From the NCBI GenBank assembly GCA_028554795.2, contig CM068830.1, positions 45,522,227-45,586,226 of the forward strand: DNA of 64,000 bases. The letters are read 5' to 3'. The notes under the pieces were generated by a model that saw only the letters and a list, made by a program, of their open reading frames with translations, had not been told where the DNA came from and ran no database searches. The stretch's first letter is position 1. Every line of letters starts with the position of its first letter. Positions 45,036 to 59,072 of this stretch are shown piece by piece. The position numbers were made by a program, and so were the translations under genes. This stretch comes from Sinohyriopsis cumingii. Its lineage: Eukaryota > Mollusca > Bivalvia > Unionida > Unionidae.

Positions 45036-45235
45036 TTACGTGCGACTTTTGATCATGTAAATTGCTGTAGTGGCGGTCAAGAAAATAAATACTATATTCT
45101 ATTTTTTGTTTTAGTTTGAGTGATTATTTTTCATAATTGATGGGTTTATCAAAATGTCGTTTAATGACTTAGAAAACAAATTCATTGCGCTTCGAAGCCC
45201 GTAGATCAGACAAACACAATGCTAATAGTAGTGAA

Positions 45236-45405
45236 TAGGGATAGTATACGTAGAATGGAAATTAGCATTACAGACCCCCTTGGGAACATATACGTACAAT
45301 GGAAATTTAACATGGCGAAAAATCGTGGGAACATATACGTACAAGGGGAATTTAACATGGCAATAAATCGTGGGATACTATACGTACAAGGGGAATTTAA
45401 CATGG
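45236..45405. repeat. 45-bp tandem repeats at the Polinton left end
   Basis: Four imperfect units contain ATACGTACAAGGGGAATTTA followed by ACATGGC and a short A/T linker. They probably belong to the terminal inverted repeat, which in Polintons often carries tandem units. A long A/T homopolymer patch follows at 45408-45442. Confidence 0.6.
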
Positions 45406-45463
45406 GATTTTTTTTAAATTTTAAAAAAAAATTTTTAAAAAAGGGGTAGGCAATGGAAAGGCT

Positions 45464-45501
45464 ATCTCTTTTCGAGATATATGGGGGCCCTGAAAAGGGC
45501 C
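45464..45501 (-). terminator. Histone-type 3' stem-loop and downstream element, gene 1
   Basis: On the minus strand CAAA precedes GGCCCTTTTCAGGGCC (45486-45501), a 6-bp stem with a TTTC loop. A purine-rich CGAAAAGAGATAG lies about 8-20 nt downstream. This matches the replication-dependent histone mRNA 3'-end signal (SLBP site plus U7 snRNP site). It starts 24 nt after the stop codon of the gene at 45526. Confidence 0.85.
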
Positions 45502-45525
45502 TTTGGGTTTTTTCTTCTTCTTCTT

Positions 45526-46122
45526 TTAACTTCTTAACTTCTTCCACCATCCTCTTATTTTGTCCATCATTCCTTTCTTCTTTTTCTTTTCTGTTTCCGG
45601 CAACCAGTCCGGGTGGCCCATGGCCCGGAACTTCTCTTGGATTTTCATCCAGTTTGTGTTCAGTTTTTCGAATTCATCCCTTTTTTTTCTATTTTCTTCT
45701 TCTTTTCTTTCCGTTGACCACTTTTCTTTGATCTTCTTGACCTCTTCGGTCAGCACATTCCTCATTAGTTCTTCAGCTTTCTTAAGTTTTTCTAGCCCCC
45801 ACTTCGCGAAACACCAATCTGTCCATTCTACAATGTCTTCTAGAAAGCACCTTGCACTCGTCACATGATCTATCGCTTCTTTTAACTTACCCACTTTGAC
45901 ATACGGTGGGTTAATTAAACCTCTTATTCTCTTCTCCTCATCCTCTATCATTTCTTTTACAATATTTACGGATAAGTGGAGGCTGGTTACTTGTCTTGAG
46001 ACGAAGTCTTTTGTCACTGCATACCTCCATTCCCGTTCAACCCTTTCTACTACACTCAATCCATCTACCATCCAATACCAACTTCCCATAAGATCGTTGT
46101 ATAAAGCTGAAGCTGCTGGCAT
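45526..46122 (-). CDS. Unknown Polinton protein 1, Lys/Glu-rich, histone-type 3' end
   Basis: 198 residues, ATG at 46122. I do not recognise the family. The N-terminal half is mixed (DLMGSWYWMVDGLSVVERVE). The C-terminal half is a charged, probably coiled-coil region (KKAEELMRNVLTEEVKKIKE and on) ending with KKKKKG, MMDKIRGWWKKLRS. It is the first of three consecutive small genes with the same promoter motif 62-63 nt before the ATG and the same 3' stem-loop, so it is probably co-regulated with them, perhaps in S phase. Possible roles, such as DNA or chromatin binding, are guesses. Confidence 0.75.
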   Translation of the reverse strand: MPAASALYNDLMGSWYWMVDGLSVVERVEREWRYAVTKDFVSRQVTSLHLSVNIVKEMIEDEEKRIRGLINPPYVKVGKLKEAIDHVTSARCFLEDIVEWTDWCFAKWGLEKLKKAEELMRNVLTEEVKKIKEKWSTERKEEENRKKRDEFEKLNTNWMKIQEKFRAMGHPDWLPETEKKKKKGMMDKIRGWWKKLRS

Positions 46123-46173
46123 CTTCTTGTTTGCTTATTCCGTAGAATGGGTTCCAATGGCCAACACTGTTAG

Positions 46174-46212
46174 TTTTATACTCAAAGCGCGAACGTGAAG
46201 GAAAACATCCCC
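46174..46212 (-). promoter_or_regulatory. Promoter module of gene 1
   Basis: On the minus strand GGGGATGTTTTCCTTCACG plus TTCGCGCTTT (46184-46212) is followed 3 nt later by TATAAAA (46174-46180). The ATG is 52 nt beyond the TATA box. The same module precedes the next two genes at the same spacing. Confidence 0.8.
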
Positions 46213-46252
46213 TAAAACATAAAATGGATCTTACCTAGATCATGACCCAACA

Positions 46253-46281
46253 ACGCGCGGACGTGAAGGAAAACATCCCCC
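46253..46281 (-). promoter_or_regulatory. Second copy of the upstream promoter motif, gene 1
   Basis: GATGTTTTCCTTCACGTCCG followed by CGCGT, 41 nt further upstream than the first copy, with no TATA box. The gene 2 promoter has a degenerate second copy at about 47060-47082 in the same relative place. Confidence 0.7.
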
Positions 46282-46488
46282 TACTTTCTCATTTCATATA
46301 ATATAACCCTAACTATACTCTCTACATACGCTAAGAATCAATAAATAAATCCATAATCTACTATTCACACAAACTTACTTCAGCATTTACAAACACAAAC
46401 ACACAAACACATACCCTTCCACTATTAATAAAGAGTTAGTGTTTATATTCACACTACTCTACCTACTCACATTGGCAAATCTATCGTT

Positions 46489-46527
46489 ATTTCTTTTCTA
46501 GAGTATTGGGTAGCCCTGAAAAGGGCT
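46489..46527 (-). terminator. Histone-type 3' stem-loop and downstream element, gene 2
   Basis: The minus strand has ACAAAAC, then AGCCCTTTTCAGGGCT (46512-46527), then ACCCA, the classic sequence after histone stem-loops, then AGAAAAGAAAT about 12 nt on. The first stem pair is A-T rather than the usual G-C. It starts 29 nt after the stop codon at 46557. Confidence 0.85.
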
Positions 46528-46556
46528 GTTTTGTTTGGAACTTCATGGACACCTGG

Positions 46557-46919
46557 TTAATGGTGGCACCTTCCAGGCCTGGCGCCACATACACATCTTA
46601 TCCCCCAGTTACTTTTTACCTTTTGGGGGGAGAGAGCAGAGGCAGGATATGTCGCTTCAGAATCCCAATTTTCGCTCTCTGGGATTTTGAAATTTCTTCT
46701 CTCCTTTTCCTCCTCCTCTTCTTTGTTTCTTCTTTCCTCTTTATATCTTCTTTCTTCTTCTTCTTTATATCTTCTCTCCTCCTCTTCTTTGTTTCTTCTT
46801 TCCTCCTCTCTTATCCTTCCCTCCTCGACAATGGCTTCCGCGGCCAGTTCATTTAATATGCGCCTGGTATATTCCAGATGCACATGAAGCTCCAACAGTT
46901 TCTCAAGTCTCGTGTTCAT
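46557..46919 (-). CDS. Unknown Polinton protein 2, Glu/Arg coiled coil, histone-type 3' end
   Basis: 120 residues from the ATG at 46919, chosen because it lies 63 nt from the promoter motif as in its neighbours. The N-terminus (MNTRLEKLLELHVHLEYTRR) resembles that of the next gene (CSKLAKLNEAYVNLHRVRH). The centre is an EEERRxKEE repeat forming a long charged helix. The end (GIRCVCGARPGRCHH) has Cys and His that could bind metal. Function unknown. Its promoter, 5' flank and 3' signal are clearly duplicated with the next unit, about 865 bp away, while the proteins have diverged fast. Confidence 0.75.
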   Translation of the reverse strand: MNTRLEKLLELHVHLEYTRRILNELAAEAIVEEGRIREEERRNKEEEERRYKEEEERRYKEERRNKEEEEEKERRNFKIPESENWDSEATYPASALSPQKVKSNWGIRCVCGARPGRCHH

Positions 46920-46972
46920 TTTTTGGTGTTGATCAATCAACAAGGGTAGCTGGACTGCCGAACGAGTTTCAA

Positions 46973-47010
46973 TTTATACTGAAAGCGCGGACGTGAAGGA
47001 AAACATCCCC
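46973..47010 (-). promoter_or_regulatory. Promoter module of gene 2
   Basis: GGGGATGTTTTCCTTCACG plus TCCGCGCTTT (46982-47010), then TATAAA (46973-46978), then the ATG 54 nt later. Confidence 0.8.
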
Positions 47011-47354
47011 CTAATAACATAAAATTCATCTTACCTAGATCATGACCAAAAAAACAACAACGCGCGGACCTAAAAGAAACACTCACTCACTTTTTATGCT
47101 ACCCATCACTATTTTAAAATTTTTTTATAAATCACTTCAATAGACTATCCACATACGCAAAGCAATTCAATCTAACTCCAAATATACACCTCAAACACTA
47201 AGAAAAGATATCATTTTAATCTACTATCCACACCAACTTACTTGAGCTCTTACAAACACAAACACACCAACACATACCCTCACATTTTTAAAAAGAGTTA
47301 GTGTTTATTTTCACACTACTCTACCTACACACACATTGGCAAATCGATCCTTAC

Positions 47355-47392
47355 TTCTTTTCTAGAGTATTGGGGTAGCCCTGAAAAGGGCT
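47355..47392 (-). terminator. Histone-type 3' stem-loop and downstream element, gene 3
   Basis: AGCCCTTTTCAGGGCT (47377-47392) is followed by ACCCCA and, 12 nt on, GAAAAGAAG. It starts 29 nt after the stop at 47422, the same spacing as gene 2. Confidence 0.85.
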
Positions 47393-47421
47393 GTTTTTTT
47401 TGTTTGCTATGGCATTCTTTT

Positions 47422-47763
47422 TTAGTTTCTAAGAATGCGATGTCCTCTGAGGATAGACTTTCTGGCGATAGGTCTGCTTCTTCGGAAAGAGAAGAAGAAC
47501 TCTTTGGTGTCGATACGGCAATCGACAAAGCCTCTGTCAGCTTCAGGTTGTTGCTGCTGTTGCTGCTGTCTCTGAAGTCTGTACTTTTCTGTCCATTCTT
47601 CTTTTTCCCTGTTCATTTCTTCTCTGAAGAGCTCTTCTATTAGGTCTTCAGTGACTTTTAGCATTCTCACGTTCTCTATTTCTTCTGGCTTCGGTATCAG
47701 ACTGTGTCTGACCCTATGCAAATTCACGTAGGCTTCGTTGAGCTTAGCTAGTTTGGAGCACAT
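47422..47763 (-). CDS. Unknown Polinton protein 3, helical with poly-Gln, histone-type 3' end
   Basis: 113 residues from the ATG at 47763, 63 nt from the promoter motif. N-terminal helix CSKLAKLNEAYVNLHRVRHS, then a Glu-rich helix and a run of eight Gln. After the Gln run this frame becomes Arg/Phe-rich. A neighbouring frame (47325-47528) is Ser/Glu-rich and looks more protein-like, but it runs through the stem-loop. The stop spacing of 29 nt supports the frame chosen; an indel in the CAG/CAA run is possible. No known family. Confidence 0.65.
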   Translation of the reverse strand: MCSKLAKLNEAYVNLHRVRHSLIPKPEEIENVRMLKVTEDLIEELFREEMNREKEEWTEKYRLQRQQQQQQQPEADRGFVDCRIDTKEFFFSFRRSRPIARKSILRGHRILRN

Positions 47764-47813
47764 CTTCGTTGGAGGATGAGTCGACAATGGATGGTTAGAC
47801 TGGGAACAACCCG

Positions 47814-47854
47814 GTTCTTAAAGTTAAAGCGCGGACGTGAAGGAAAACATCCCC
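47814..47854 (-). promoter_or_regulatory. Promoter module of gene 3
   Basis: GGGGATGTTTTCCTTCACG plus TCCGCGCTTT at 47826-47854. The TATA box position holds a degenerate TTAAGAA. The ATG is 63 nt from the motif edge. Confidence 0.75.
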
Positions 47855-47984
47855 CACACGGTTTTCGAGCCGCAACGTTCAGTGAGTGTCATGAGAGGGA
47901 TAGTAAGAAATGAAAGAGCATCAATCCAACATTCTTTATAGCTAAACAAAAGACAAAGGCATTTTTTTTCAAAACACAACATTT

Positions 47985-47990
47985 TTTATT
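47985..47990 (-). terminator. Polyadenylation signal after the protease gene
   Basis: AATAAA on the minus strand, 109 nt past the protease stop. It contrasts with the stem-loop ends of the three genes to its left. Confidence 0.6.
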
Positions 47991-48098
47991 CAAAAATCAC
48001 TTAACACTAAACAACAACTCTAACATTTTTAACACTATAACACTATAACATCAAACAATTTTTTTCAAATCACAAACATTTTTTTCTCAATTCACAAT

Positions 48099-48659
48099 CT
48101 ACTTTAAACAGGGTTGACAACGTTGTGAATGAAATTGTGATTTCCACTGTTGGAAATCATTAGGCCATTGATGGACACTACGTTTCCTAGCTTGAGACAA
48201 AAGATAAGCATAATGGTCACAAAACCATCGATCTACTTTCACATCGTTTCTAGCAGAAGAACGAGGATCAAAATGAGTCACTAAATGTTCTAAGGAATAG
48301 CCCAGGCTGCGATGATGCAGAAAATACACACAGTACTGTCCACACACCAAGGAATCTGTTCCTTGTAATTTCACGTTATTGAATCGGGTGGTTTGAGCAT
48401 TTCTTCTCATAAAGTCGATGATATCGTCTTCCAAAGGGGGCAATCCGCACGAATCGAAATATTCCACACAGCCTTCTTGAGGAAAGTAGACGGCTACCCA
48501 GTGGGTTCCTGGGAGATGACTGTCGTCCGTGTTGATTACGTAAGCTTGATGGTCTTTAGGTTTGCGATGAGGGAGTTCATCTTTAGCACAGACGACAGGA
48601 TTCCAAGAAGCCGTATACGAACTGTGGTTCAAAAGGTAATAAAGTTCCCAGGTATCCAT
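48099..48659 (-). CDS. PRO: Adenain-like cysteine protease (maturation protease)
   Basis: 186 residues, ATG at 48659. It has the Ulp1/adenovirus-protease layout: catalytic His53 in GTHWVAVYF, acidic Asp69 in EYFDSCG, oxyanion Gln99 in KLQGTDSLVCG, and nucleophile Cys106 in VCGQYCVYF. In Polintons and adenoviruses this enzyme cleaves capsid and core precursors during virion maturation. It lies next to the capsid genes. Length and catalytic residues look intact. Confidence 0.92.
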   Translation of the reverse strand: MDTWELYYLLNHSSYTASWNPVVCAKDELPHRKPKDHQAYVINTDDSHLPGTHWVAVYFPQEGCVEYFDSCGLPPLEDDIIDFMRRNAQTTRFNNVKLQGTDSLVCGQYCVYFLHHRSLGYSLEHLVTHFDPRSSARNDVKVDRWFCDHYAYLLSQARKRSVHQWPNDFQQWKSQFHSQRCQPCLK

Positions 48660-48678
48660 TGATTTGTGTTTTTTTTCT

Positions 48679-49185
48679 TCACAGGTAATAATAAGTCGTC
48701 AATTCGATCCTGACTTTTTGCTTGAAAATATCTGACGAATAAACGGTTATTCGTTCTGTTTCCTCACTCTGATTCAGGAGAGCTTCGATGCGATGGATCT
48801 CTTGAGTGGTTAATGGTGGACAAGAATGTTCACGCAAGTCTTTATACCACTGGTGCAACACGTCTTTGTTCGAGATGAGACTCCAAGCTTCGTCCAGATA
48901 CTCGTCCAATTTTTCTTCTTGACTCAACATCAGGCATTTATCGTGTTGAATTTGACTGGGATGATCGTTTTGACATCCATAACAATTTTTCTTAATCAAT
49001 TCCGTCATTTTGTCAACCAAGTGTTTGGCAAAACAGGAGACTAAATGGGCTTCTTGTTCTGGCCATCTCGACTTCATTATGATATCTTCTTCGTCTTTGT
49101 CTTGAGATTCTTCTTTTTCCACGGTCTCCTCACATTTCATCTCCAAAGTTTCTCCACTAGGTAAAGAGGGATAACAGTCTTCCAT
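48679..49185 (-). CDS. Polinton-conserved protein with zinc-like C/H motif
   Basis: 168 residues, ATG at 49185. An acidic N-terminus (EETVEKEESQDKDEED) precedes a conserved core with CYGCQNDHPSQIQHDKCLM, a CxxC...H...C pattern that may bind zinc. Helical sequence follows (LDEAWSLISNKDVLHQWYKD). I recall similar uncharacterised proteins in other Polintons beside the capsid gene, but know no function. It is packed 6 nt from the capsid gene stop. Confidence 0.75.
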   Translation of the reverse strand: MEDCYPSLPSGETLEMKCEETVEKEESQDKDEEDIIMKSRWPEQEAHLVSCFAKHLVDKMTELIKKNCYGCQNDHPSQIQHDKCLMLSQEEKLDEYLDEAWSLISNKDVLHQWYKDLREHSCPPLTTQEIHRIEALLNQSEETERITVYSSDIFKQKVRIELTTYYYL

Positions 49186-49191
49186 GGCTTT

Positions 49192-50511
49192 CTAATAGTC
49201 TAAAATGACTTCTCTCAAACTGTTGATTTCTATCGTATTGTCAAATTCTGCATACAGGATGACGTTCAACGTTGGATCAGCAGGGTCTCGGTTTGCAAAC
49301 TGAATTTCCACACGAATCTGGCCTGATTTTATAGGGTGGAAATGTCCCTCGTCGCTGCCTTGGTCTGGAGTGAAATCGAAAGCCCACAAAGCATAGCCTC
49401 CTGCATAATCGTCGTACGTAATCCCGTGACTGGTGTTGGTCCCTAACTGTCCCGTGGCTTCGTACAGGGACAAGTACGATCTCAAGTAATTGTTCTGGGT
49501 AAAATTAGACTCAAAGGGTCGGGTACACAAGGTCTTGCCGTCGCGACTGACTTCGATCTTGGACACGCTAGAGTGTCGAAACTCAAAAGGATTTTCGTTG
49601 TGAAGTCCATTGAAAGCTGAATTCCTGACGATACCAACGATCAAACGCTTGGGTAACTGTCCTTGGAACAGATGATCTTCGATCATGGATTGCTGTCCAA
49701 CAGGAATGGTGAACGTTTTCACTTCCACGCGTCGTATGGGATACTTGGCGGTCGTTCTGCTCAACGTCTGACTGATGTCGTTTCCCACTTTAGGTAACAC
49801 TTCCACACGGCGTACGTAAAGTCTGGCTTCTTGGATAACAGTTTTGTATTCGTTGGCATTGGCCATCAAATGGAAAGCGGCAGTGCTACGATTCAGTCTC
49901 AGGCGGATATCCACGCCGTTCAGCAAATACTTTTCTTGTAACCACATGTCCAAATGCAAACGATCCATCAGTTCTAAACTTCGCCCTTGCAGAATTTTAG
50001 TTCTACGTGTGTTAAACCCCACATTGTGAGGATCGTCATCTGCTGTCAGGACTGTGTCGTTAAACGTGCCTGCCGTGTCAGGTTTCCATACCACACAAGC
50101 ATCCAGATGAGTATTCTTGGCTTCTTTTCCGTACGTCAAGAGATTTTCCAGGTAGGCACGATATGGGTAAGTATCCATGCTGCTGCTGACCAGTTTGTTA
50201 TTCAAGTACAAGTCCACTTCGCTGAACAAGGAATGCATGAAATTGTTAACAGGAGCTACCCTATCATTGGCTCCAGGATTGCTGTTGTCCGTTTTGCTCA
50301 CTTTGACTTTCAAATACAGGTAACTGCTATTTAGATCGATGTAATCTTCGGGCTGTCCTTTGATTTCAAACTCGATGGGAGCGGAATCGGTCAATGAGGA
50401 GACGGGATGAAATTCCACCCACTGGGATTCTTGCATGGTCATCATGGTGGGGGGCATGGCAAACATATCCAGTTCCGTCTTGGAACAAGCGCAAGACTCT
50501 CGGTGCATCAT
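49192..50511 (-). CDS. MCP: Major capsid protein, double jelly-roll
   Basis: 439 residues, ATG-ATG at 50511. The N-terminal part carries the conserved MPPTMMTMQES then WVEFHPVSSLTDSAPIEFEI segment (about residues 19-50) and EDYIDLNSSYLYLK. The Polinton major capsid family has two vertical jelly-rolls and forms pseudo-hexameric trimers of an icosahedral shell. The frame is open throughout. Neighbours are the pVI-like gene and the protease. Confidence 0.9.
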   Translation of the reverse strand: MMHRESCACSKTELDMFAMPPTMMTMQESQWVEFHPVSSLTDSAPIEFEIKGQPEDYIDLNSSYLYLKVKVSKTDNSNPGANDRVAPVNNFMHSLFSEVDLYLNNKLVSSSMDTYPYRAYLENLLTYGKEAKNTHLDACVVWKPDTAGTFNDTVLTADDDPHNVGFNTRRTKILQGRSLELMDRLHLDMWLQEKYLLNGVDIRLRLNRSTAAFHLMANANEYKTVIQEARLYVRRVEVLPKVGNDISQTLSRTTAKYPIRRVEVKTFTIPVGQQSMIEDHLFQGQLPKRLIVGIVRNSAFNGLHNENPFEFRHSSVSKIEVSRDGKTLCTRPFESNFTQNNYLRSYLSLYEATGQLGTNTSHGITYDDYAGGYALWAFDFTPDQGSDEGHFHPIKSGQIRVEIQFANRDPADPTLNVILYAEFDNTIEINSLREVILDY

Positions 50512-50527
50512 TTTTTGTTGCTGTGTC

Positions 50528-50944
50528 TCAATAATCGAAAACGTCTAAGTCTCGAACGGTTCTTCTTTTCTTGGCCTTTCTCGCTTGAAGTCTGGTGAAA
50601 GGGTGTTTTCTTCGTCGTCTCTTTCTGCCTTGTCCTTGCTGAATGCCTGACTCGGTAGCGTGCAGGGCATTTATAGGTGTGTCTCGTCGGCCCAAAATGT
50701 CTTTACCCGTTTGCAGCAAGACATTTTTGCCTGCCCTCATGAAGGCTTCTTTAGGGTTTTGTTTGTCGATGATGACATTTTGGAGAAATTATTTGCCTTG
50801 CGTCAGTGCCGCATCTTTCAAGGCGTGCAATCCGCGTGTCACCATCGGTTTCAACACCGGGGCCACCGAACGAAAGGCCGATTTTAACATATCTCCTAAA
50901 CCGTGTCCTCGCTGTCGAGCAACTCCTCGGTACACTGGATACAT
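50528..50944 (-). pseudogene. pVI-like glycine-rich minor virion protein with in-frame stop
   Basis: The frame runs from ATG at 50944 to a stop at 50528 (139 codons), but TAA at 50789-50791 cuts it after 51 codons. The N-terminus has VYRGVARQRGHGLGDMLKSA, a pattern common in Polinton virion proteins and loosely like adenovirus pVI or pX. The C-terminus is a basic GRKRRRRKHP and KAKKRRTVRDLDVFDY. It starts 3 nt after the stop of the penton-like gene. A plus-strand open frame over it is a shadow. Whether the stop is real or a sequence error is unknown. Confidence 0.75.
50669..50675 (-). promoter_or_regulatory. TATA-like box upstream of the major capsid gene
   Basis: TATAAAT on the minus strand inside the pVI-like gene, 158 nt before the capsid ATG. 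Weak evidence. Confidence 0.35.
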
Positions 50945-50947
50945 GAC

Positions 50948-51874
50948 TTACGAGTCGTGAGAGAACCGTTTTCTAAAATGGAGTTTCACCGTGACTTTTC
51001 CTTTGGTGAATGGAATATTTTGTCCCAAATCTCCTTTTATAGTAATGTTGACCGTGTCCAAATACGACTTGCTGACAGGCAAATAGTGAGGATGGACAAA
51101 TTCGCGGTGGACGTGGTAAGTGTTTCCACCTTCCTCGTCAGCGTTCGTGACAGAATCCACTTTGAAAGGAATGACACGCAGTAACGGTACGGAGGTGTGT
51201 CCCACCACGTTGTACTCCACCACATCGGAGTACACAAACATCAAACTCAGTCCTTGGTTCAGTTCTACCGGGGAACGAAAATACCTGGCAAAAGAATCGT
51301 TGTCAGAAATGACTGGTAATTCGTTTTTTTCTTCTACTTTCTTCCTCATCTCCATGTTCCCCCCCAACATGTCAAACAATTCAGGACAAAATACAATGGA
51401 CACGATTTTACTCGGCTCAATTTTCATCAAGAAGCGACGAGCTGCTTTGTGGTACTCCATGGTGACCTTTTTTTGGGCAAGCTCCAAAGCTTTCAGAAAC
51501 ACGACATTAAACCTGGAGCTTATGGTGCTGACCAAATGTTGACCACTAAAATAATAGCCTGGGTTAATCAACAAGTGGTAGGTCCACGTTTGAGTTTTTT
51601 CATTATAGGTTTTATTGTCATATTTGACATTATTCAAGTGCTTTTGCAATTGCTCGTCATGAACTTCCACATCAAATGTATTTTGATTGGGAAGGACATT
51701 GAGGACTTGGGTCGGGTGAATCATTTCCACTAAAGCCACTTCCCAATGGGCTTCGTGATCTAAGGGGATGGCCTGAGGTAATTTGGCCGTGTAACAGCAC
51801 AACGTGTTCTTGGGAAACACCTCCATGGAACTGTCACTGGGTAAGGTTAAGTAAAATTGGTTTTGGTGACTCAT
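50948..51874 (-). CDS. mCP: Penton-like minor capsid protein
   Basis: 308 residues, ATG at 51874. The N-terminus FYLTLPSDSSMEVFPKNTL, then WEVALVEMIHPT, and the C-terminus IPFTKGKVTVKLHFRKRF match the Polinton minor capsid (penton) family, a single jelly-roll at the five-fold vertices. The start overlaps the end of the membrane-protein gene by 4 nt (51871-51874). The frame is intact. Confidence 0.85.
   Translation of the reverse strand: MSHQNQFYLTLPSDSSMEVFPKNTLCCYTAKLPQAIPLDHEAHWEVALVEMIHPTQVLNVLPNQNTFDVEVHDEQLQKHLNNVKYDNKTYNEKTQTWTYHLLINPGYYFSGQHLVSTISSRFNVVFLKALELAQKKVTMEYHKAARRFLMKIEPSKIVSIVFCPELFDMLGGNMEMRKKVEEKNELPVISDNDSFARYFRSPVELNQGLSLMFVYSDVVEYNVVGHTSVPLLRVIPFKVDSVTNADEEGGNTYHVHREFVHPHYLPVSKSYLDTVNITIKGDLGQNIPFTKGKVTVKLHFRKRFSHDS
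51034..51041 (-). promoter_or_regulatory. TATA box upstream of the pVI-like gene
   Basis: TATAAAAG on the minus strand, within the 3' part of the penton gene and 90 nt before the ATG at 50944. Confidence 0.5.
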
Positions 51875-52281
51875 AATTCCAGAGTTCTGTGGTTGTCCGA
51901 GGGGTTACTGGACGTCAGAGGCGTGTCTCCGCCCAAAATGGGGTTCTGATTGTGGATGTTGGAGTGGTGACTGGCACTGGCACTGGACACAAGGTTCCCG
52001 TTCGAGGAGAATTTCAGGGAGGGATTGGGAAGCAGGTAACCGATGCAACTGCTCAATAAAATGGTCCACAATTGTTTGTCTCCTTGTTGCAAACTCAAAT
52101 TGGCGATGGCTGCCCCGATGACACAATACACCACGAAGATTTGGCAGAAAAAGACGATTTGCGTTTTAGGCACACGTTCTCCACACCACACCCACAAGGG
52201 TTGTTTTTGTAAATCTTGCACAGAAGAACTGGGTGAAGGAGGAGTGGTCGACGTAGCTGCGTCTGCTGTGTGAAAGGGCAT
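51871..52281 (-). CDS. Polinton-conserved membrane protein
   Basis: 136 residues from the ATG at 52281, which is preferred over an upstream GTG. A Ser/Thr/Pro-rich head, then CGERVPKTQIVFFCQIFVVY, a first membrane segment (about 41-62), NLSLQQGDKQ and a second (about 71-85) ending SSCIGYLLPNPSLK. I remember this VPK/FFCQ...GYLLPNP pattern in other Polintons; its role (virion membrane or assembly) is unknown. It starts 6 nt after the integrase stop. Confidence 0.75.
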   Translation of the reverse strand: MPFHTADAATSTTPPSPSSSVQDLQKQPLWVWCGERVPKTQIVFFCQIFVVYCVIGAAIANLSLQQGDKQLWTILLSSCIGYLLPNPSLKFSSNGNLVSSASASHHSNIHNQNPILGGDTPLTSSNPSDNHRTLEL

Positions 52282-52286
52282 GATGG

Positions 52287-53396
52287 TCACTTCTTTTTAT
52301 AGTCGATGACTTGCGAAGCGTCGATCCAAGAATCGAAACTGGGTGGATATCCTTTCCAACGTACTTTGACTTCTTTGACACGTCGTTTGCCCACTTTACG
52401 GGTTCTGCGTTCGAGAATGCTTTCGATGTCGTACACGTCGTCTTCTTTTTTGGTGACACGTTGTAACTCGGGCAAATAAAACGTTCCTTTGAGTACTTCT
52501 CCGTTCATGTCTTCCAATTTATAGACGGCAGGATGACGGCCATGCACTCGTCCAGTGACGCGAAACAATTCGGTTGTCCAGTTAGGTAAGTAACCTTTGT
52601 CGAAAGTGCGTTTGGTTTTGCCAATGCGCACCCAATCTCCTACGGTCAACTCTCCACTTTTCTTGGGGACAGCCCTCGTCGGGGACGTACCGAACAGACG
52701 CTCAAACACCAACACTTCATTGTCGGGAGTCACGTCTTGCGGGGCACGTCCGATGCTTCGATGGTAAGATTGGTTGTACGCTTGCACCAGGTGCGGTAAG
52801 ATGTCGATGTACTTCAGAGTGTGGTGATGCGTAAAATATTTCCACATGCGTTCTTTCAAAGTGCGTTGAAAACGCTCCACGATGCTGGCTTTGGTTTCGG
52901 GATTCTCGGTGGTAAAAAAATGAATGTCACGTTTCTTTAATTCTTTTTGGAAAGCTTGGTTCAGAAATTCGGTGCCTTTGTCCGTTTGCCATCGAAGAGG
53001 GTGACGGCCACTTTGTTTCAACACTCGTTGCAGGGCTCGCACTAACTCGCTGCTGGATTTGGAAGTCAAGGGCACGACCCAGGCAAATTTGGAAAAGACG
53101 TCGATGACACAAAACAGATATTTGTAGCCACGATTGTAGCTGGCCAAATGAGAGACATCGGCTAAATCGGCTTGCCATTGATGATCGATGCCTTCCACTC
53201 GGGTGCGACTTCTGGCAAACTTGCGTCGAATGGGTTTGTGCAAAGTGTAGGTAGCTTGTTCTTGTAACCATCGTTGCACTTGAGGTAAACGGAGACTTTT
53301 CAGTTGAGTTTTGGCAGCACGATACAATTTTTGAACTCCTGCGTAACCTGCAGGATGCGAGGGATCGTAGTAAATGCTAGCTAAGACTTTTTCCAT
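52287..53396 (-). CDS. INT: Retrovirus-like integrase with C-terminal chromodomain
   Basis: 369 residues, ATG at 53396. The RVE-type DDE core has Asp77 (HQWQADLADVS), Asp139 (WQTDKGTEF) and Glu174 (SIVERFQRTL), with the D-35-E spacing of integrases. An SH3-like part follows (GDWVRIGKTKRTFDKGYLPN). A chromodomain is at about 315-366 (YDIESILERR, VKVRWKGYPPSFDSWIDASQ). The chromodomain probably steers insertion to methylated-histone chromatin, as in chromoviral integrases. The frame is intact with all catalytic residues, so integration could be supplied in trans to broken copies. Confidence 0.95.
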   Translation of the reverse strand: MEKVLASIYYDPSHPAGYAGVQKLYRAAKTQLKSLRLPQVQRWLQEQATYTLHKPIRRKFARSRTRVEGIDHQWQADLADVSHLASYNRGYKYLFCVIDVFSKFAWVVPLTSKSSSELVRALQRVLKQSGRHPLRWQTDKGTEFLNQAFQKELKKRDIHFFTTENPETKASIVERFQRTLKERMWKYFTHHHTLKYIDILPHLVQAYNQSYHRSIGRAPQDVTPDNEVLVFERLFGTSPTRAVPKKSGELTVGDWVRIGKTKRTFDKGYLPNWTTELFRVTGRVHGRHPAVYKLEDMNGEVLKGTFYLPELQRVTKKEDDVYDIESILERRTRKVGKRRVKEVKVRWKGYPPSFDSWIDASQVIDYKKK

Positions 53397-53417
53397 TTTT
53401 TTGTGTTGATTGGTGTG

Positions 53418-54044
53418 TTAATAAGGCACCCACTCTTCGAAGAGGCTACTCTTTTTCTCTTGGGGTATTTTCTTGGATTGCAAGGCTTTGCGTGTGCGAC
53501 CGGCAATAGGTGTTGAAGAGGAGGAGGATGTCTGAGCGGGGGATATCGGTTCTTGTTTCACTTCTGTCTTCACTTTCTTTTTCTCTTGTGAGGAAGAAGG
53601 GGTGGCCATCATCTTTTTAATCCATCCAATTCTGGAGGTAGGTGGTGTTGTTAACTTGCGTACTTTTTCTGGTGGAGTTTGAAACCCTTCTTCTTCTTTT
53701 CCTTTTTCTGTCTTGGTCACGGGTAGTGGTGGAACTGGTACTGGTACTGGTGATGGTGCTGGACTTTTCATCAAGGTCTTAAAATCTTTCAAAGTGGGTA
53801 GAGCTGTTTCGTCTAAAGCTTTCTGGTGAAAGAGTTGCAGTCGTTGCAAGAGTTGACCGTACTTTTGCGATTTTTCTGTTTCGGACAAATCTTGGCGATC
53901 CATCAAGGACTGCAATTCGTGTTGTAACTGGGACATTTCGCTCAAATGGGGATTGGGAGGTAAATGCGGGGTGTGTTGTTCTTGCCACCGATGGTATTCC
54001 ATCCATCGTTTGTAAGGCACTAAAGCTAGTTTTCGTCCTTCCAT
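53418..54044 (-). CDS. Polinton-conserved structural or core-associated protein
   Basis: 208 residues, ATG at 54044. The N-terminus MEGRKLALVPYKRWMEYHRW and a helical region (ELQSLMDRQDLSETEKSQKY) match a conserved but uncharacterised Polinton family. The rest is Pro/Lys/Ser-rich and probably disordered, with a VKQE SUMO-type site. Transcribed from a TATA-like box at 54091. Function unknown. Confidence 0.7.
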   Translation of the reverse strand: MEGRKLALVPYKRWMEYHRWQEQHTPHLPPNPHLSEMSQLQHELQSLMDRQDLSETEKSQKYGQLLQRLQLFHQKALDETALPTLKDFKTLMKSPAPSPVPVPVPPLPVTKTEKGKEEEGFQTPPEKVRKLTTPPTSRIGWIKKMMATPSSSQEKKKVKTEVKQEPISPAQTSSSSSTPIAGRTRKALQSKKIPQEKKSSLFEEWVPY

Positions 54045-54090
54045 GGGGTTGTCAGGGGTGAATTCTGAGATCTTGGGACTTCCGAAGGCC

Positions 54091-54098
54091 TTTTTATC
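54091..54098 (-). promoter_or_regulatory. TATA-like box
   Basis: GATAAAAAGG on the minus strand, 47 nt before the ATG at 54044. Confidence 0.5.
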
Positions 54099-54504
54099 TT
54101 GCTCCCACCAGTCCTCCCAACATGGTTCCCAAGACTCCTTTCAGTATGGGGCCTAACAAGAGAGGCAAAATGCCTCCACGTTGCACTAACATTTTCTTTT
54201 TTTGACGAATGGGAATTTTCTTTTGAACCATTTGGCGAAGAACGTGACGATGTTTGCCTAAGCATTGTTTCTGGTGTTTGGACAAAGGGATCGTGCCTTT
54301 CAAAACGTTCAAACAACATTCGCACACGGTATCGATGACCTCTTTGGAGGCCGTTTGAATGAGTTTTTTTCGTAGGGGTGGAGAAGCTTTGGACAGGACA
54401 GATAACAGGTCCCCATGTTTAGCTAAACGTGGTGGCAGTCCTTTCCTTTTCTTTCCTTGGGGTTTTCTGGAGGGTGACATTTTTGCTTGTGGGTTCCGGG
54501 ACAT
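54094..54504 (-). CDS. Polinton-conserved basic protein with Gly-rich C-terminus
   Basis: 136 residues, ATG at 54504. After a basic head comes LSVLSKASPPLRKKLIQTAS, then VCECCLNVLKGTIPLSKHQK and the basic KKKMLVQRGGILPLLLGPIL, ending in a hydrophobic Gly-rich tail. The CECxLNxLKG...QxGG pattern is a widespread Polinton family of unknown role; basic charge and a membrane-active-looking tail suggest a virion protein. The gene at 55442 looks like a diverged relative. Confidence 0.75.
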   Translation of the reverse strand: MSRNPQAKMSPSRKPQGKKRKGLPPRLAKHGDLLSVLSKASPPLRKKLIQTASKEVIDTVCECCLNVLKGTIPLSKHQKQCLGKHRHVLRQMVQKKIPIRQKKKMLVQRGGILPLLLGPILKGVLGTMLGGLVGAR

Positions 54505-54545
54505 TCACCGAACAGACACTAACGTCGATGACTTAACGCACACCC

Positions 54546-54552
54546 TTTTATC
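54546..54552 (-). promoter_or_regulatory. TATA-like box
   Basis: GATAAAAGG on the minus strand, 42 nt before the ATG at 54504. Confidence 0.45.
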
Positions 54553-54564
54553 TTTTTTTTGGGA

Positions 54565-54753
54565 CTATCGCTTTGTCATAAAGGTGACAATGTTTTTCCC
54601 AAAATCACCAAGGAATCCTCCCCTTTGTTGACGCCTCTTTTTCTTGGAACGACTGTGTCTTTTCTTAGGGTAATGTCGATGCTTGGCTAAGCGCTTTGTC
54701 GGATGACGCGTCTGCCTTTGTCTCTTTCTTTTGTGGCTTCTTGGAGGTGACAT
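54565..54753 (-). CDS. Small very basic core-like protein
   Basis: 62 residues, ATG at 54753. About 45 percent Lys/Arg/His, then QQRGGFLGDFGKNIV. Composition and the RGGFLGDF tail recall adenovirus core peptides such as mu or pVII, which condense viral DNA. TATAAAAA lies 44 nt upstream. Assignment by composition only. Confidence 0.65.
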   Translation of the reverse strand: MSPPRSHKRKRQRQTRHPTKRLAKHRHYPKKRHSRSKKKRRQQRGGFLGDFGKNIVTFMTKR

Positions 54754-54796
54754 CTTTTTTACAAGTTCACTGATACCCCGACTTGGTCACAGGCTC

Positions 54797-54804
54797 TTTT
54801 TATA
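54797..54804 (-). promoter_or_regulatory. TATA box
   Basis: TATAAAAA on the minus strand, 44 nt before the ATG at 54753, overlapping the end of the preceding gene. Confidence 0.6.
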
Positions 54805-55441
54805 CTGGAACGCGTCGCCACTGATTGTCTTTACGTTTTATCAGTTTGAGGACAGGCATGACACGTCGTGCAGGGGTACGCAACGGACTAAATCGAGCCA
54901 GTTCTTGCTTGAACAAATCCAGTAAACTTTGTAACATGCCCGATCTTTCTTGGACTTTGATTTTGGGAGAAGGTACTTTGTGAGCAGCAGCCACTGCCAC
55001 TAAATTGGAGGGTCCTGCCACTGGGGAAGTTCTTTTGGGGGTCATCAACGGAGATGTTCTTGGTGTGATCAACGTCTCCAAGTACTCTTCAGTTCTGGGT
55101 GTCATCAACGGAGAAGTGGATGAACGTGAGGATGCCGGACACGCAGTCACTGCCGTGGCAGGTCGTGGTTTGCGAGTGTAAGGTTGCGTCCTGGCCGAAG
55201 TGCCTCTCTTGCGACTAGTTTTCTTCTGTGGACTTTTCTTTTTCTGGGGACTTTTTCTCTGTTTCTTTTTCTGGGGGCTTCTTTTCTTTTTCCGGGGTGG
55301 TGGTGTCTGGTAAGAGGAGGGTCCTGCCACTGGAGAAGTTATTCTTCTTGGGGACCTGGTCTTTTTCTTTTTCTTCTTGGGGCTTCGTTGGACTTTTGTC
55401 TTGGGGATAACTTTGGGGGCATTAGGATCCCATCTTAAGAG
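54800..55441 (-). CDS. Histone H1-like SPKK-repeat open frame lacking its own ATG
   Basis: The frame is open from the TGA that ends the next gene (55442-55444) to 54800, but has no ATG near its start; the first plausible initiator is a GTG at 55330. It is Lys/Pro-rich with SPKK, SPRR and repeated SPQKKK motifs, as in the minor-groove-binding tails of histone H1 and sea-urchin sperm histones, plus TPRT/SPLMTP repeats. The C-terminus is helical and basic (LQSLLDLFKQELARF). It is in phase with the gene before it, so the two may be one protein, by readthrough of TGA or before a CGA-to-TGA mutation. A separate TATA box is not seen. Confidence 0.6.
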   Translation of the reverse strand, partial: LLRWDPNAPKVIPKTKVQRSPKKKKKKTRSPRRITSPVAGPSSYQTPPPRKKKRSPQKKKQRKSPQKKKSPQKKTSRKRGTSARTQPYTRKPRPATAVTACPASSRSSTSPLMTPRTEEYLETLITPRTSPLMTPKRTSPVAGPSNLVAVAAAHKVPSPKIKVQERSGMLQSLLDLFKQELARFSPLRTPARRVMPVLKLIKRKDNQWRRVPV

Positions 55442-55756
55442 TCAGCGAATGATGACCCCTCCTAGAGTACCGCTCCCTCCAGGTTTCAAAATGATTTGTT
55501 TTTTGGTTTGAGTGTCGATGCGGGGATCGGCCAGTTGGACCAAAGCGACTTTGTTTCGATCGAAAAAGCGTTGGGTTTGATGAGGAATCTGAATGATTCC
55601 TTGGAGTAATTGACGTGCCGTCACCGTGAACCATCGTAAGACTTCTTTGAGACTAGCTTCTAAGACACGGGCTCGTGTTTGTGGATCTTTTTCTCGACTG
55701 ATGCCATACAAGGCACGAATCAATTTGACGGGAAGATGCGACTGAAGGGACGTCAT
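55442..55756 (-). CDS. Polinton-conserved protein, relative of 54094-54504
   Basis: 104 residues, ATG at 55756. LIRALYGISREKDPQTRARV, then LRWFTVTARQLLQGIIQIPH and KKQIILKPGGSGTLGG align loosely in order with the LSVLSK...LNVLKG...LVQRGG protein, suggesting old duplication. Stop is TGA, followed by a long open frame in the same phase. TATAAAAA lies 39 nt before the ATG. Function unknown. Confidence 0.7.
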   Translation of the reverse strand: MTSLQSHLPVKLIRALYGISREKDPQTRARVLEASLKEVLRWFTVTARQLLQGIIQIPHQTQRFFDRNKVALVQLADPRIDTQTKKQIILKPGGSGTLGGVIIR

Positions 55757-55794
55757 GTTCACACTGTGTGAGACAGACGAAAAAGGGTCTGAGG

Positions 55795-55802
55795 TTTTTA
55801 TA
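55795..55802 (-). promoter_or_regulatory. TATA box
   Basis: TATAAAAA on the minus strand, 39 nt before the ATG at 55756. Confidence 0.6.
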
Positions 55803-55810
55803 GATTTTTT

Positions 55811-56554
55811 TCATGGGGAGTGAAATGAAGTCGAGGACGGAGACGTGTACAGGACAGGCCCTCCGTCTTGGCACCAGTGGTGAAACAAGTGGGTACGAAA
55901 TCGCAAATCCTCGGGGGTCGTAGGTTTCAAATCGACGAGTAAATAGGCGTGTGGCGTTTGAGTGGCATCGTCGTACGCCTGAGTCAGCCAAGGCGTTCCT
56001 AACTGTTTGGCTAAGACTTGCACTTGCGATTTATCTCGAGGGCTTTTAAACAAGACCACGTAATGCGCATTGAGACTGATGGTGCGATGGGCTTTACTTT
56101 GTTGAAACAAATTGTGGGTGATGTAAACGACACTGGCATTACGGTGATGCCCTTTGCGCGTGAACCACAGTTTAATTTCTTCTTCGTCTTCTCCTAACAT
56201 GTCGTCGAAAATGACCAAATGGGTTTGACGGGAGTCAGAGACGATGCCGTCGTCTTCTTTAGGAATGCCTTCCACAAACACGATGGAATCGCCTTGACTT
56301 TCTCGCAAGAGGCTGTACGCCGATTGCCACTCTTTGTAACACCACACGATCCGTTGAGGGGGCCGATCGATCAAATGATGTTTATGTTCGATCAAACGTT
56401 TGACGAATTCGGTTTTGCCTGAACCGCTAGGTCCAGCAATGAGCATGTTAAAGGGATGGCGAAGATACAAAGCCTCCCAACTGGCACGATCTAAGTGTTC
56501 GTCGATGACTTTGACAGTAGAGGAAGAGGGAGCAGAGACAGTAGAGGTAGCCAT
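55811..56554 (-). CDS. ATP: FtsK/HerA-type genome-packaging ATPase
   Basis: 247 residues, ATG at 56554. Walker A is GPSGSGKT at 41-48, Walker B is HLVIFDDM with Asp117-Asp118, and a sensor-like SVVYITHNLFQQ lies at 141-151. This is the A32/FtsK-HerA packaging ATPase shared by Polintons, virophages and large DNA viruses; it pumps DNA into preformed capsids. The frame is intact and TATATAAA lies 47 nt upstream. Confidence 0.93.
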   Translation of the reverse strand: MATSTVSAPSSSTVKVIDEHLDRASWEALYLRHPFNMLIAGPSGSGKTEFVKRLIEHKHHLIDRPPQRIVWCYKEWQSAYSLLRESQGDSIVFVEGIPKEDDGIVSDSRQTHLVIFDDMLGEDEEEIKLWFTRKGHHRNASVVYITHNLFQQSKAHRTISLNAHYVVLFKSPRDKSQVQVLAKQLGTPWLTQAYDDATQTPHAYLLVDLKPTTPEDLRFRTHLFHHWCQDGGPVLYTSPSSTSFHSP

Positions 56555-56600
56555 GGTGTGAGAAATGTCACTTGTGACACGAAAACAAACAAGACAAGAG

Positions 56601-56608
56601 TTTATATA
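56601..56608 (-). promoter_or_regulatory. TATA box of the ATPase gene
   Basis: TATATAAA on the minus strand, 47 nt before the ATG at 56554. Confidence 0.6.
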
Positions 56609-56624
56609 CTTTTTTCAGAACACG

Positions 56625-56630
56625 TTTATT
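56625..56630 (-). terminator. Polyadenylation signal
   Basis: AATAAA on the minus strand, 13 nt after the stop of the small membrane-protein gene at 56643. Confidence 0.6.
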
Positions 56631-56642
56631 GAATGTTTTTTT

Positions 56643-56990
56643 TCAAACATGAATACGAAAGACAAAAATACATAAAAGCCAAAGGCTTAAGTACAAGGAT
56701 AAAAGGCACATGATAACTATGAATGTGGAATAAACACAAGTGTCTGTACAACAACCACATGTTTTGGGTAATGTTCTAACCAGTTCAACAGGGGGTAAGG
56801 TCACACAAGTGTCCTCCCGAAAGGGTCTTTCAGGCCTGTCCACGACAGTCCCGTCCTGGGTGACGGGTTCTTCTGGCACCGTCACTAACACGGGTTGAAA
56901 AGTAACTTTTTTCCTTGAACAACTCTCGTGCATACTGGGCCACTTCTTGGGTCCAAGCCTCAAAACCCCATTCTTTCCAGGCACGGACAT
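56643..56990 (-). CDS. Small tail-anchored membrane protein, unknown
   Basis: 115 residues from the ATG at 56990. Pro/Val-rich middle, then a Cys cluster (KTCGCCTDTC) before a strong membrane segment (about 88-111) at the C-terminus. It overlaps the preceding gene in another frame. The part before a run of six A (56907-56912) looks less protein-like than the part after, so the true product may be the C-terminal part of a longer protein joined by a frame change. No known family. Confidence 0.55.
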   Translation of the reverse strand: MSVPGKNGVLRLGPKKWPSMHESCSRKKVTFQPVLVTVPEEPVTQDGTVVDRPERPFREDTCVTLPPVELVRTLPKTCGCCTDTCVYSTFIVIMCLLSLYLSLWLLCIFVFRIHV

Positions 56991-57153
56991 CTGTCCAATG
57001 GGGATGTAAGTCACAAGCTACACACACATCGTCATACACGTCTTGGGTAGCTAAAAGTTGACGAATCTTTTTTTCCTGTTGTGGTCGAGAAGTATCCAGA
57101 TGAAAACGCAAGGCTTTGAGCAAAAGGAGTTTTTCGTGACCATTTAAGGCCAT
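56830..57153 (-). CDS. Unknown Polinton protein overlapping the membrane protein
   Basis: 107 residues from the ATG at 57153. Helical start (LNGHEKLLLLKALRFHLDTS), then VYDDVCVACDLHPHW. The composition is normal until the A6 run at 56907-56912, after which the residues look random up to the stop at 56830. Beyond that run the other frame looks coding, so a one-base slip or lesion is likely. I do not recognise it. Confidence 0.5.
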   Translation of the reverse strand: MALNGHEKLLLLKALRFHLDTSRPQQEKKIRQLLATQDVYDDVCVACDLHPHWTDVRAWKEWGFEAWTQEVAQYARELFKEKSYFSTRVSDGARRTRHPGRDCRGQA

Positions 57154-57368
57154 GGAGGTGGTAAGTACTGATCGTAAAGAGTCCACAAAGAATCGGCTGG
57201 TAAACGAAATCCCAGAAAACAAGTCACTAAGACACACACCACTTGTCGTCCCAAATTGAATGGATACAATTCTTGTAATAATCGATGGTAATGATCCACG
57301 GTTTGAATATGGTCATTGAGTTCCTTCCACGGAATCTGTTGGATTACATGCGACATAAGTCGTGGCAT
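57144..57368 (-). CDS. Small unknown protein
   Basis: 74 residues, ATG at 57368, stop overlapping the next gene's start by about 10 nt. Sequence includes IPWKELNDHIQTVDHYHRLL and a hydrophobic VVCVLVTCFLGF. A TATAAAAA at 57378-57385 is very close to the ATG. No known domain. Confidence 0.5.
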   Translation of the reverse strand: MPRLMSHVIQQIPWKELNDHIQTVDHYHRLLQELYPFNLGRQVVCVLVTCFLGFRLPADSLWTLYDQYLPPPWP

Positions 57369-57831
57369 AGCAGCCTGTTTTTATAGTCTCTTTGTTTCGA
57401 AAAGAATACACGTACTTTCTAGCCAGTGATCTTCGTTCTCCAGTTGGGAATGTAAATCTTGCATACTGTAACCGAAACTTCAGAGTTCGTTTAGAAGTTT
57501 CCTCTTCCGCTAAGTAGATTCCACGTAACAAATGTTGGTAATCCTTTACCTCGTCTTCCTCAATGGGTTGCTCTAGGTGAATCTCGAAGTAACCAAAATG
57601 ATCAACACGTGAATCATCGGGGGCCTGGAAGTATTGAACAAGGTCTGACCACTGAAACAATTTCTGACGAATCAGTTCTCTTATACCATTCAGGTACCAG
57701 TGGTTAAAAATCTGGTGACGTAACGGATGCAGTTGTTCTTTACGTTTCACTTGTATTTTCACCAGCTCTCGGTAAATGCGTTCTCTCAACTCCACAGGTA
57801 AAGGACGAATGTTCTCTAGCAAAGTAGCCAT
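57313..57831 (-). CDS. F-box-like protein, tandem paralogue 1
   Basis: 172 residues, ATG at 57831. The first 47 residues (ENIRPLPVELRERIYRELVK, then RKEQLHPLRH) are nearly identical to the next gene; the rest has diverged. The LPxELRxRIYxEL pattern resembles F-box-like N-termini, which bind SKP1 in ubiquitin ligases, but this is a motif-level guess. The last 20 residues overlap the next gene down. It may recruit host ubiquitin ligases. Confidence 0.65.
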   Translation of the reverse strand: MATLLENIRPLPVELRERIYRELVKIQVKRKEQLHPLRHQIFNHWYLNGIRELIRQKLFQWSDLVQYFQAPDDSRVDHFGYFEIHLEQPIEEDEVKDYQHLLRGIYLAEEETSKRTLKFRLQYARFTFPTGERRSLARKYVYSFRNKETIKTGCYATTYVACNPTDSVEGTQ

Positions 57832-57843
57832 GAATAGGTCATA

Positions 57844-58299
57844 CTAAATCCTCTTTGGTCTGACACAAGAAATGTACTCTTTGCACAAACATGGTTTCAC
57901 TTCAGTGTCGAATTTAAATCGTTGAGTCACTAATCTACACATTACAATTCGTTCAGAAGTTTCCTCTTTCACTAAGTTGACATTGTGTTCAAGATGTTGG
58001 TAATTCGTTAACTCTTCCTCTGGAATTCGATGCAGTACGTTTACAATGATGTAACTACAATCGTCCATACCAAACCAATCCTTTTTAAAACTAGAGGATC
58101 GTTGATCAATGTCTGTCCGATGGAACACTTTCAATTGAATCAATCCTTGTATAGCCTTCAGGTACCAGTGGTTCAAACACCGGTGACGTAACGGATGCAA
58201 TTGTTCTTTACGTTTCACTTGTATTTTGACTAGTTCTCGATAAATGCGTTCTCTCAACTCCACAGGCAAAGCACGAATGTTCTCTTGTAAAGTATCCAT
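57844..58299 (-). CDS. F-box-like protein, tandem paralogue 2
   Basis: 151 residues, ATG at 58299. Same N-terminus as its neighbour (ENIRALPVELRERIYRELVK) and a common layout, including a DYQHL/NYQHL and EETSxR segment in the C-terminal half. The two arose by local duplication inside the element. No TATA box is clear. Confidence 0.65.
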   Translation of the reverse strand: MDTLQENIRALPVELRERIYRELVKIQVKRKEQLHPLRHRCLNHWYLKAIQGLIQLKVFHRTDIDQRSSSFKKDWFGMDDCSYIIVNVLHRIPEEELTNYQHLEHNVNLVKEETSERIVMCRLVTQRFKFDTEVKPCLCKEYISCVRPKRI

Positions 58300-58327
58300 G
58301 AACAGATTATTATGGTAAGAAGTTACT

Positions 58328-59072
58328 TCAATGTCTCGGTCCCACTAAAGGTAAGTAATGACAATTCGGTGACCATCGAGCATGTTCAACGTAGGCCGAA
58401 TCTTGCGGTTCCCAGTGGTGAAGTGACACACCGCAACTGAAGCACTTGACTTTATCTCCTTCGCCCAAGTAGAAAAATCCGGCTCTGGCTAATTCTTCGG
58501 GGGTCGGTCCTCCCAGATACTTTGGCCATTTTCCTTTGAACGATTGAAGACGATTTTCAAAGTCGCAGTATTCCGACAAACGCACAGGGAACGAATATTC
58601 GTTTTTCACAGGTTCGTTTCGATAAGGGTTGGGTGACAGGAACAGGAGTTTGCTCAGGGCTGGATGACATCCGTAGGGGGGGTAGACGTGAAGGTGAACA
58701 TTCCCCTTTAAAACGAAACCCAGTAAAATGTCCAAGAGGACGAGCAGCATCGCTTTCGCACCCCACAGGTTTGACACGCACAGCATCACTTTCCATGATA
58801 GGGGTAGGGGCACTAAAGTTCCCATGATGCTTTACGGCATCGCTCAGGTCACAACGTACAGCATCGGTCCCATTGCAAGGCTCACAATCGCACTCGTCTG
58901 CAAACTCCGTTACGCAATTACAATGGTAACCACATGGACAATCGCAGTTTCCTTCCGGACATTTTCCGTCGCAATGCCTGGGTCTTATCCATCCAGTATT
59001 AGTCACACTAGAGAAAGATACAGCTTTTTTACAATCCCCAAACTGGAACGATGTCTCTTTCAAAGTATTCAT
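58328..59072 (-). CDS. BIR-domain (IAP-like) gene with Cys-rich N-terminus, frame-shifted
   Basis: Two overlapping frames seem to form one gene. The upstream frame (ATG at 59072, to 58557) has a metallothionein-like Cys cluster (CDGKCPEGNCDCPCGYHCNC, then CDCEPCNG). The downstream frame (stop at 58328) has a complete BIR domain at about 58355-58573: zinc ligands C128, C131, H148 and C155 counted from its ATG at 58825 (CFSC, EHARWSPNC). The switch lies between about 58573 and 58640. There is no RING. BIR proteins in insect viruses block caspases or immune signalling, and the same is plausible here. Either a frameshift lesion or an unseen intron explains the break; the BIR frame alone could also be used. 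Confidence 0.7.
58686..58706 (-). promoter_or_regulatory. Partial match to the gene 1-3 promoter motif
   Basis: GGGGAATGTTCACCTTCACG on the minus strand differs from the shared motif at a few positions. It lies within the Cys-rich part of the IAP-like gene, with no TATA box at the expected place. Confidence 0.3.

Follow-up and report, generated by a model that had tools for sequence, protein, structure and literature searches.

The window analysed here, a 64,000-nucleotide stretch of the Sinohyriopsis cumingii genome, contains the left part of a Polinton copy (45227..64000, no strand assigned), which was delimited by its inverted terminal repeats and Polinton gene set and is cut by the window edge. 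The right end of the element lies about 1.4 kb beyond the window (L151:1431, approximately window-equivalent 65431), and the terminal inverted repeats (window 45227-45509 and L151 1431-1113) share 75% identity. Pfam searches identified, all on one strand, a viral type B DNA polymerase (DNA_pol_B_2, 5.9e-42), an integrase (rve, 2.6e-14) with a chromodomain, an A32-type ATPase (Pox_A32, 1.1e-7) and a BIR-domain protein. A match to an adenovirus-type protease stayed under the cut-off of its family (Peptidase_C5, E 0.012, 15.8 bits compared to a cut-off of 21.3). In its type B polymerase, integrase with chromodomain, A32-type ATPase and terminal inverted repeats, and in its length of about 20.2 kb against the 15-20 kb typical of the group, the copy resembles Polinton/Maverick elements. 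Among the matches listed for the integrase (120 of 2,539), the relatives with names were from oysters and lancelets. No related locus was confirmed in IMG/VR when the ATPase, the gene 1 profile and the integrase were used as queries.

Several other features were observed in the same stretch. A 439-aa ORF (49192-50511, minus strand) weakly matched a coat protein of archaeal-virus type in the PDB (E 0.2) and is a possible major capsid protein. The BIR (inhibitor-of-apoptosis) domain protein is encoded at 58328-58825 (minus strand, E 3.6e-24). A tandem gene duplication at 57313-58299 (minus strand) comprises the adjacent ORFs 57313-57831 and 57844-58299, which have a 209-nt stretch of 84% identity in common. 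In the flanking DNA, a fragment of a reverse transcriptase RNase H domain was found at 9425-9916 (minus strand).

Five short genes of this Polinton are followed by a stem-loop, three at the left end and two at the right end. Gene 1 (45526..46122, minus strand) encodes a protein of 198 aa. Its stem-loop (GGCCCTTTTCAGGGCC, 45486..45501, minus strand) is located inside the terminal inverted repeat, and its U7-type downstream element (CTCGAAAAGA, 45467..45476, minus strand) is able to fold into a hairpin of its own. Gene 2 (46557..46919, minus strand) encodes a K/E-rich protein of 120 aa and is followed by the stem-loop AGCCCTTTTCAGGGCT (46512..46527, minus strand) and the downstream element CTAGAAAAGA (46492..46501, minus strand). 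Gene 3 (47422..47763, minus strand; 113 aa counted from the first ATG) has the same stem-loop, AGCCCTTTTCAGGGCT (47377..47392, minus strand), and the same downstream element, CTAGAAAAGA (47356..47365, minus strand). The earlier note had placed the stem-loops of these three genes 24, 29 and 29 nt past the stop codons, and they were found at exactly these distances. At the right end, one stem-loop (window-equivalent 64028-64043 on L151, minus strand) lies 26 nt past the stop of a 192-aa ORF, and the other (window-equivalent 65121-65136 on L151, plus strand) 22 nt past the stop of a 76-aa ORF. In all five genes the stem-loop has an asymmetric loop and is oriented in the sense of the gene.

The five products are short, charged and without known domains; for gene 2, no domain was found above the cut-off. 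A domain search detected no histone domain in any of the five. The claim that the three window proteins are not histones thus stood, as they match no histone family, and the capture of whole histone genes was ruled out. Five relatives of the gene 1 product, with 45-53% identity, were found in JGI/ENA contigs, and one relative of the 76-aa product. A PDB search with the gene 1 profile gave a best E value of 0.015, which was taken as chance.

The stem-loops are perfect 6-bp hairpins after stop codons. Besides the three, only one place in the window was within three mismatches of them (62979-62994, plus strand, 3 mismatches), and in 100 shuffles the matches averaged 0.74 and did not exceed 3. The flanking sequences described in the earlier note were also recovered: the stem-loops are preceded by CCCAAA or CAAAAC/AAAAAC, and the three in the window are followed by CCCAT, ACCCA and ACCCC. 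The purine-rich GAAAAGA element took the form CT[AC]GAAAAGA, starting 9, 10 and 11 nt past the three window stem-loops. With both strands counted, this 10-mer occurs four times in the 64-kb window, and three of the occurrences are at these genes. The order after the stem-loop is an ACCCA-like sequence, CT[AC]GAAAAGA, and then ATTTGCC or ATTGCC.

The Rfam Histone3 family (RF00032) has a consensus with a 6-bp stem and a 4-nt U-rich loop (GGYYYUHHUHARRRCC). The stem-loops of gene 1 and of both right-end genes fit this consensus, while in genes 2 and 3 the outermost pair is A-U. The stem-loops of genes 1-3 scored 31.8, 31.0 and 27.7 bits, under the curated cut-off of 34, so that a Histone3 search of the window at gathering level is empty. 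Their E values were 1.3e-6, 2.7e-6 and 4.3e-5 in a search of 2.7 kb and 9.1e-6 to 3e-4 in one of 19 kb, and no further Histone3 match was found in window 45000-64000 at E values up to 5. The two right-end stem-loops of the same Polinton scored 41.2 and 35.6 bits. The earlier note had named covariance scores below the family threshold as evidence against a histone-type signal; this applies to the three window stem-loops, but their two sisters in the same element are above the threshold.

The host's own histone genes were used for comparison. With histone H4 as query, 114 matches were obtained in the 2.9-Gb assembly, and an 8.3-kb host repeat (L146) carries H4, H2B, H2A, H1 and H3, named by eye from their translations. 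Separately from this repeat, a gene judged H2B-like by eye, with a stem-loop and a related promoter element, was observed in a 1.85-kb tandem array (L148, G000:C1:5072000-5081900). The host histone stem-loops read GGCCCTTTT[TCA]AGGGCC, with GGTCCTTTTCAGGACC in H1, and those of the host, including the H2B-variant array, scored 35.0-39.4 bits with Histone3. The downstream element was CTAGAAAAGA in H4, H2B, H1 and H3 and CCCGAAAAGG in H2A, followed by an AATTTTG/ATTGTCC-like block. A third block was thus seen about 20-35 nt downstream of the stem-loops in both sets, as ATTTGCC/ATTGCC in the Polinton and as AATTTTG/ATTGTCC-like sequence in histones.

The spacing was similar as well. The GAAAAG core begins 13-14 nt after the stem-loop in six host histone genes and 12-14 nt after it in the five Polinton genes, so that all five flanks have a purine-rich element at the distance found in host histones. 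The stop-to-stem-loop distance is short in both (27-38 nt in host histones, 22-29 nt in this Polinton copy). A matrix was built from six host histone downstream flanks with the stem-loop left out, using window 1-44000 as background. The five Polinton flanks scored 16.4-23.8 with it, compared to a maximum of 13.4 among 99,947 background windows, and the host flanks themselves scored 5.1-15.9 when each was left out in turn. Chance palindromes were ruled out by the shuffles, by these matrix scores and by the genome counts against reversed controls given below.

Searches for the host processing factors were also carried out. An Rfam family search for U7 gave no match, with the positive controls equally silent, and a U7 pattern search gave 20 matches compared to 19 for the reversed control. 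One U7 candidate (L197) was rejected, being U7 neither by Rfam nor by fold. Among the pattern matches, one identical 21-mer was found on C340 in five places about 35 kb apart and on C17 in three, perhaps in a long tandem repeat. The SLBP search gave no match among 14 scored candidates, and its controls were silent too.

The three left-end genes also have a histone-type element in their promoters. In gene 1 it is located at 46187..46209 (minus strand), with TATAAA at -58 from the ATG, and a second copy lies upstream at 46255..46277 (minus strand). Gene 2 has an H2B/H1-type element at 46985..47007 (minus strand), with TATAAA at -59, and gene 3 has one at 47829..47851 (minus strand), where the TATA hexamer was absent within 140 nt. 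The same element is found upstream of the host H2B, H1 and H2B-variant genes and, inverted, before H2A (19 of 24 bases). In genes 1-3 it matches host H2B, H1 or the H2B variant at 22-23 of 24 bases. In the same comparison the highest scores were 18 among 11 other Polinton genes, 17 for the two right-end genes and 20 in 1,440 dinucleotide shuffles, which were compared with H2B, H1 and H2A. The likeness of the plus-strand right-end gene to H2A (17 of 24) was dropped, since it is within the shuffle range; the right-end genes thus combine a histone-type 3' end with a promoter lacking this element. A second, H4-type element of gene 2 (47060..47083, minus strand) is identical to host H4 at 22 of 24 bases, the shuffles having been scored without H4. 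The sequence ACGTCCGC resembles the motif of HINFP, a histone H4 gene factor and thereby a candidate for acting at the promoter element; a literature search gave no confirmation of this link.

Poly(A) signals were less informative. Neither AATAAA nor ATTAAA was found within 300 nt past the stops of genes 1 and 2, while gene 3 has AATAAA 112 nt and ATTAAA 201 nt past its stop. Only 4 of 18 other Polinton ORFs have a hexamer within 300 nt: 48099-48659 (at 108 nt), 51871-52290 (254 nt), 56830-57237 (199 nt) and 63256-63780 on the plus strand (32 and 85 nt). The other 14 have none, and many of these run straight into the next one. Because of these 14 ORFs and the AATAAA of gene 3, poly(A) signals give a weak contrast, and the hexamer pattern is compatible with two putative classes of mRNA end but hardly supports them.

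Genome-wide, the exact stem-loop 16-mers were counted 34,230 times in the G form and 21,286 times in the A form, and for the exact 23-nt promoter element the count was 24,126; the reversed controls gave 0 in each case. Seven of the G-form places listed form the H2B-like array L148, so that some of the G-form count comes from histone genes. If each element has three G and two A forms, these numbers would correspond to about 11,000 Polinton copies. Among the G-form places listed, 36 were single after pairs and the array had been removed by hand; 24 of them had at least one exact A-form stem-loop within 3.3 kb and 18 had at least two. One G-form place without an exact A-form stem-loop (L196) carries a variant that differs by one base in the loop and keeps its downstream element, and the 2.6 kb examined there contained only one such stem-loop. 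The stem-loop string was also met in 107 stretches of IMG/VR, none of them with the downstream element and 16 followed by a T-run, and these were taken as unrelated.

The sample of copies, all within this one genome, comprised 40 element ends (L156-L195) located in the first 6 Mb of contig C1, together with the window and L151. The sampled ends were picked via listed exact stem-loops, and the constancy of the stem-loop in this set is therefore no evidence. Of 104 stem-loops in the 42 sources, 98 had the end of an ORF of 50 aa or longer no more than 70 nt upstream, and in 86 of the 98 the distance was 21-32 nt. The encoded proteins fell into six clusters without mutual BLAST similarity at 1e-5. 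The histone-type promoter element was present in 48 of 57 left-end genes and in 0 of 41 right-end genes of the sampled copies. The place of gene 1 at the left end (L156-L175, window 45526-46122) is taken in different copies by one or the other of two unrelated proteins (clusters 4 and 5), each followed by the same stem-loop, a cassette exchange.

Pairwise dN/dS was 0.09-0.33 by group, with group mean dS of 0.10-1.15, in pairs that are non-independent, from copies required to have an open frame, and with one group consisting of two pairs. These values indicate that the proteins are under purifying selection. In five groups, mismatch per site was 0-0.033 in the U7-type element compared to 0.13-0.22 in the stretch between this element and the third block, 0-0.11 in the third block, 0-0.14 in the spacer between stem-loop and element, 0.03-0.24 in the following 40 columns and 0.03-0.40 at third positions of codons close to the stop. 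Since g2 and g3 also have low values across the following 40 columns, the contrast there depends on the one variable stretch. Among gene 1 copies, L168 has lost the U7-type element, and that of L160, L165, L186 and L190 carries one or two changes.

The reading of these ends as SLBP/U7-type signals, which the earlier note had put forward, gained support from histone genes of the same genome, which have the same hairpin family, the same 10-nt U7-type element at almost equal spacing and a similar third block. It is strengthened by the presence of five such genes rather than three and by the promoter element on the three window genes. Several other explanations were weighed. The stem-loops might be DNA-level palindromes or virus-type transcript-ending hairpins that merely resemble histone stem-loops. 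Perfect 6-bp hairpins after stop codons are what this would produce, the stem-loop of gene 1 does lie in a terminal inverted repeat, and Mimiviridae polyadenylate at hairpin-forming palindromes (PMC4402537), also after the stop codon. However, stem-loops 2 and 3 are outside the repeat, the asymmetric loop is in the sense of the gene in five of five cases, and the downstream element agrees with host histone genes in sequence and distance, a likeness for which a plain palindrome has no need. We consider this explanation very improbable. We know of no U7-type element or histone consensus at Mimivirus-type hairpins.

The promoter and 3' flanks could also have been captured from host histone genes and now be passive, with the mRNAs polyadenylated. 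The 3' flanks of gene 1 and host H2B are alike without gaps from the stem-loop through the third block, and the Polinton promoters match H2B best, which makes a common origin plausible. A passive relict is nevertheless highly unlikely in our view, as the downstream element recurs on six unrelated protein clusters and is nearly constant between copies whose coding mean dS is 0.10-1.15 by group. The genes may instead have dual ends, the histone-type one being used in S phase and a poly(A) site at other times. The AATAAA 112 nt past the gene 3 stop points in this direction, as do C. elegans histone genes, in which a poly(A) signal stands next to the hairpin (PMC1924863), but the absence of both hexamers from the 300 nt past the stops of genes 1 and 2 argues against it, and we regard dual ends as unlikely.

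Based on sequence comparison, then, five short non-histone genes at both ends of the Polinton carry the 3' signal of host histone genes (stem-loop, U7-type element and third block), and the three left-end genes also carry the H2B/H1-type histone promoter element. They share these features with the replication-dependent histone genes of the host and differ from them in that the proteins are non-histone, the genes are in a mobile element and the outermost pair in genes 2 and 3 is A-U. This Polinton lineage thus very probably runs a subset of its genes under the replication-dependent histone-gene programme of the host. A host factor reading the promoter element would transcribe the left-end genes in S phase, a step suggested by the promoter match. 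As suggested by the 3' match, SLBP and U7 snRNP would cleave the pre-mRNAs of all five genes a few nt past the stem-loop. The mRNAs would lack a poly(A) tail and be destroyed at the end of S phase, and their products would appear during host DNA replication. The polymerase, integrase and ATPase genes, which are without these signals, would have ordinary poly(A) ends. Timing, cleavage and mRNA fate are what we infer from the known behaviour of histone genes. We speculate that synthesis alongside new DNA would suit roles in replication, in packaging of new DNA or in early regulation.

Small DNA viruses use E2F or other S-phase promoters, and likewise tie expression to the host cell cycle by cis elements. 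In contrast to these viruses, the Polinton appears to use the histone cassette including mRNA 3' processing. To our knowledge, no Polinton with histone-type promoters or histone-type 3' ends is known. Polintons and histone-type regulation have been described separately, and their combination appears new within the literature searched: in agreement with the earlier note, no publication joining 'polinton' with 'histone stem-loop' or 'SLBP' was found, in a search that left most subscription papers outside. We think it probable that a virus-like transposon took over the host histone expression cassette (promoter element plus stem-loop/U7 3' end) for unrelated non-histone genes, giving rise to a class of metazoan mRNAs with the histone stem-loop at their ends but without a histone product.

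If this is true, the presence of the histone 3' signal, in some cases with the promoter element, on non-histone genes of a mobile element would end the uniqueness of that signal to histone genes. It would also provide the Polinton with a direct way to time its genes to host DNA replication, and would offer a natural test bed for SLBP and U7 function outside histones. The question is also raised how the host processes its histone mRNAs beside tens of thousands of competing signals. Since the approximately 55,000 exact stem-loops far outnumber the histone genes found, the Polinton may load the host histone mRNA machinery or compete for it.
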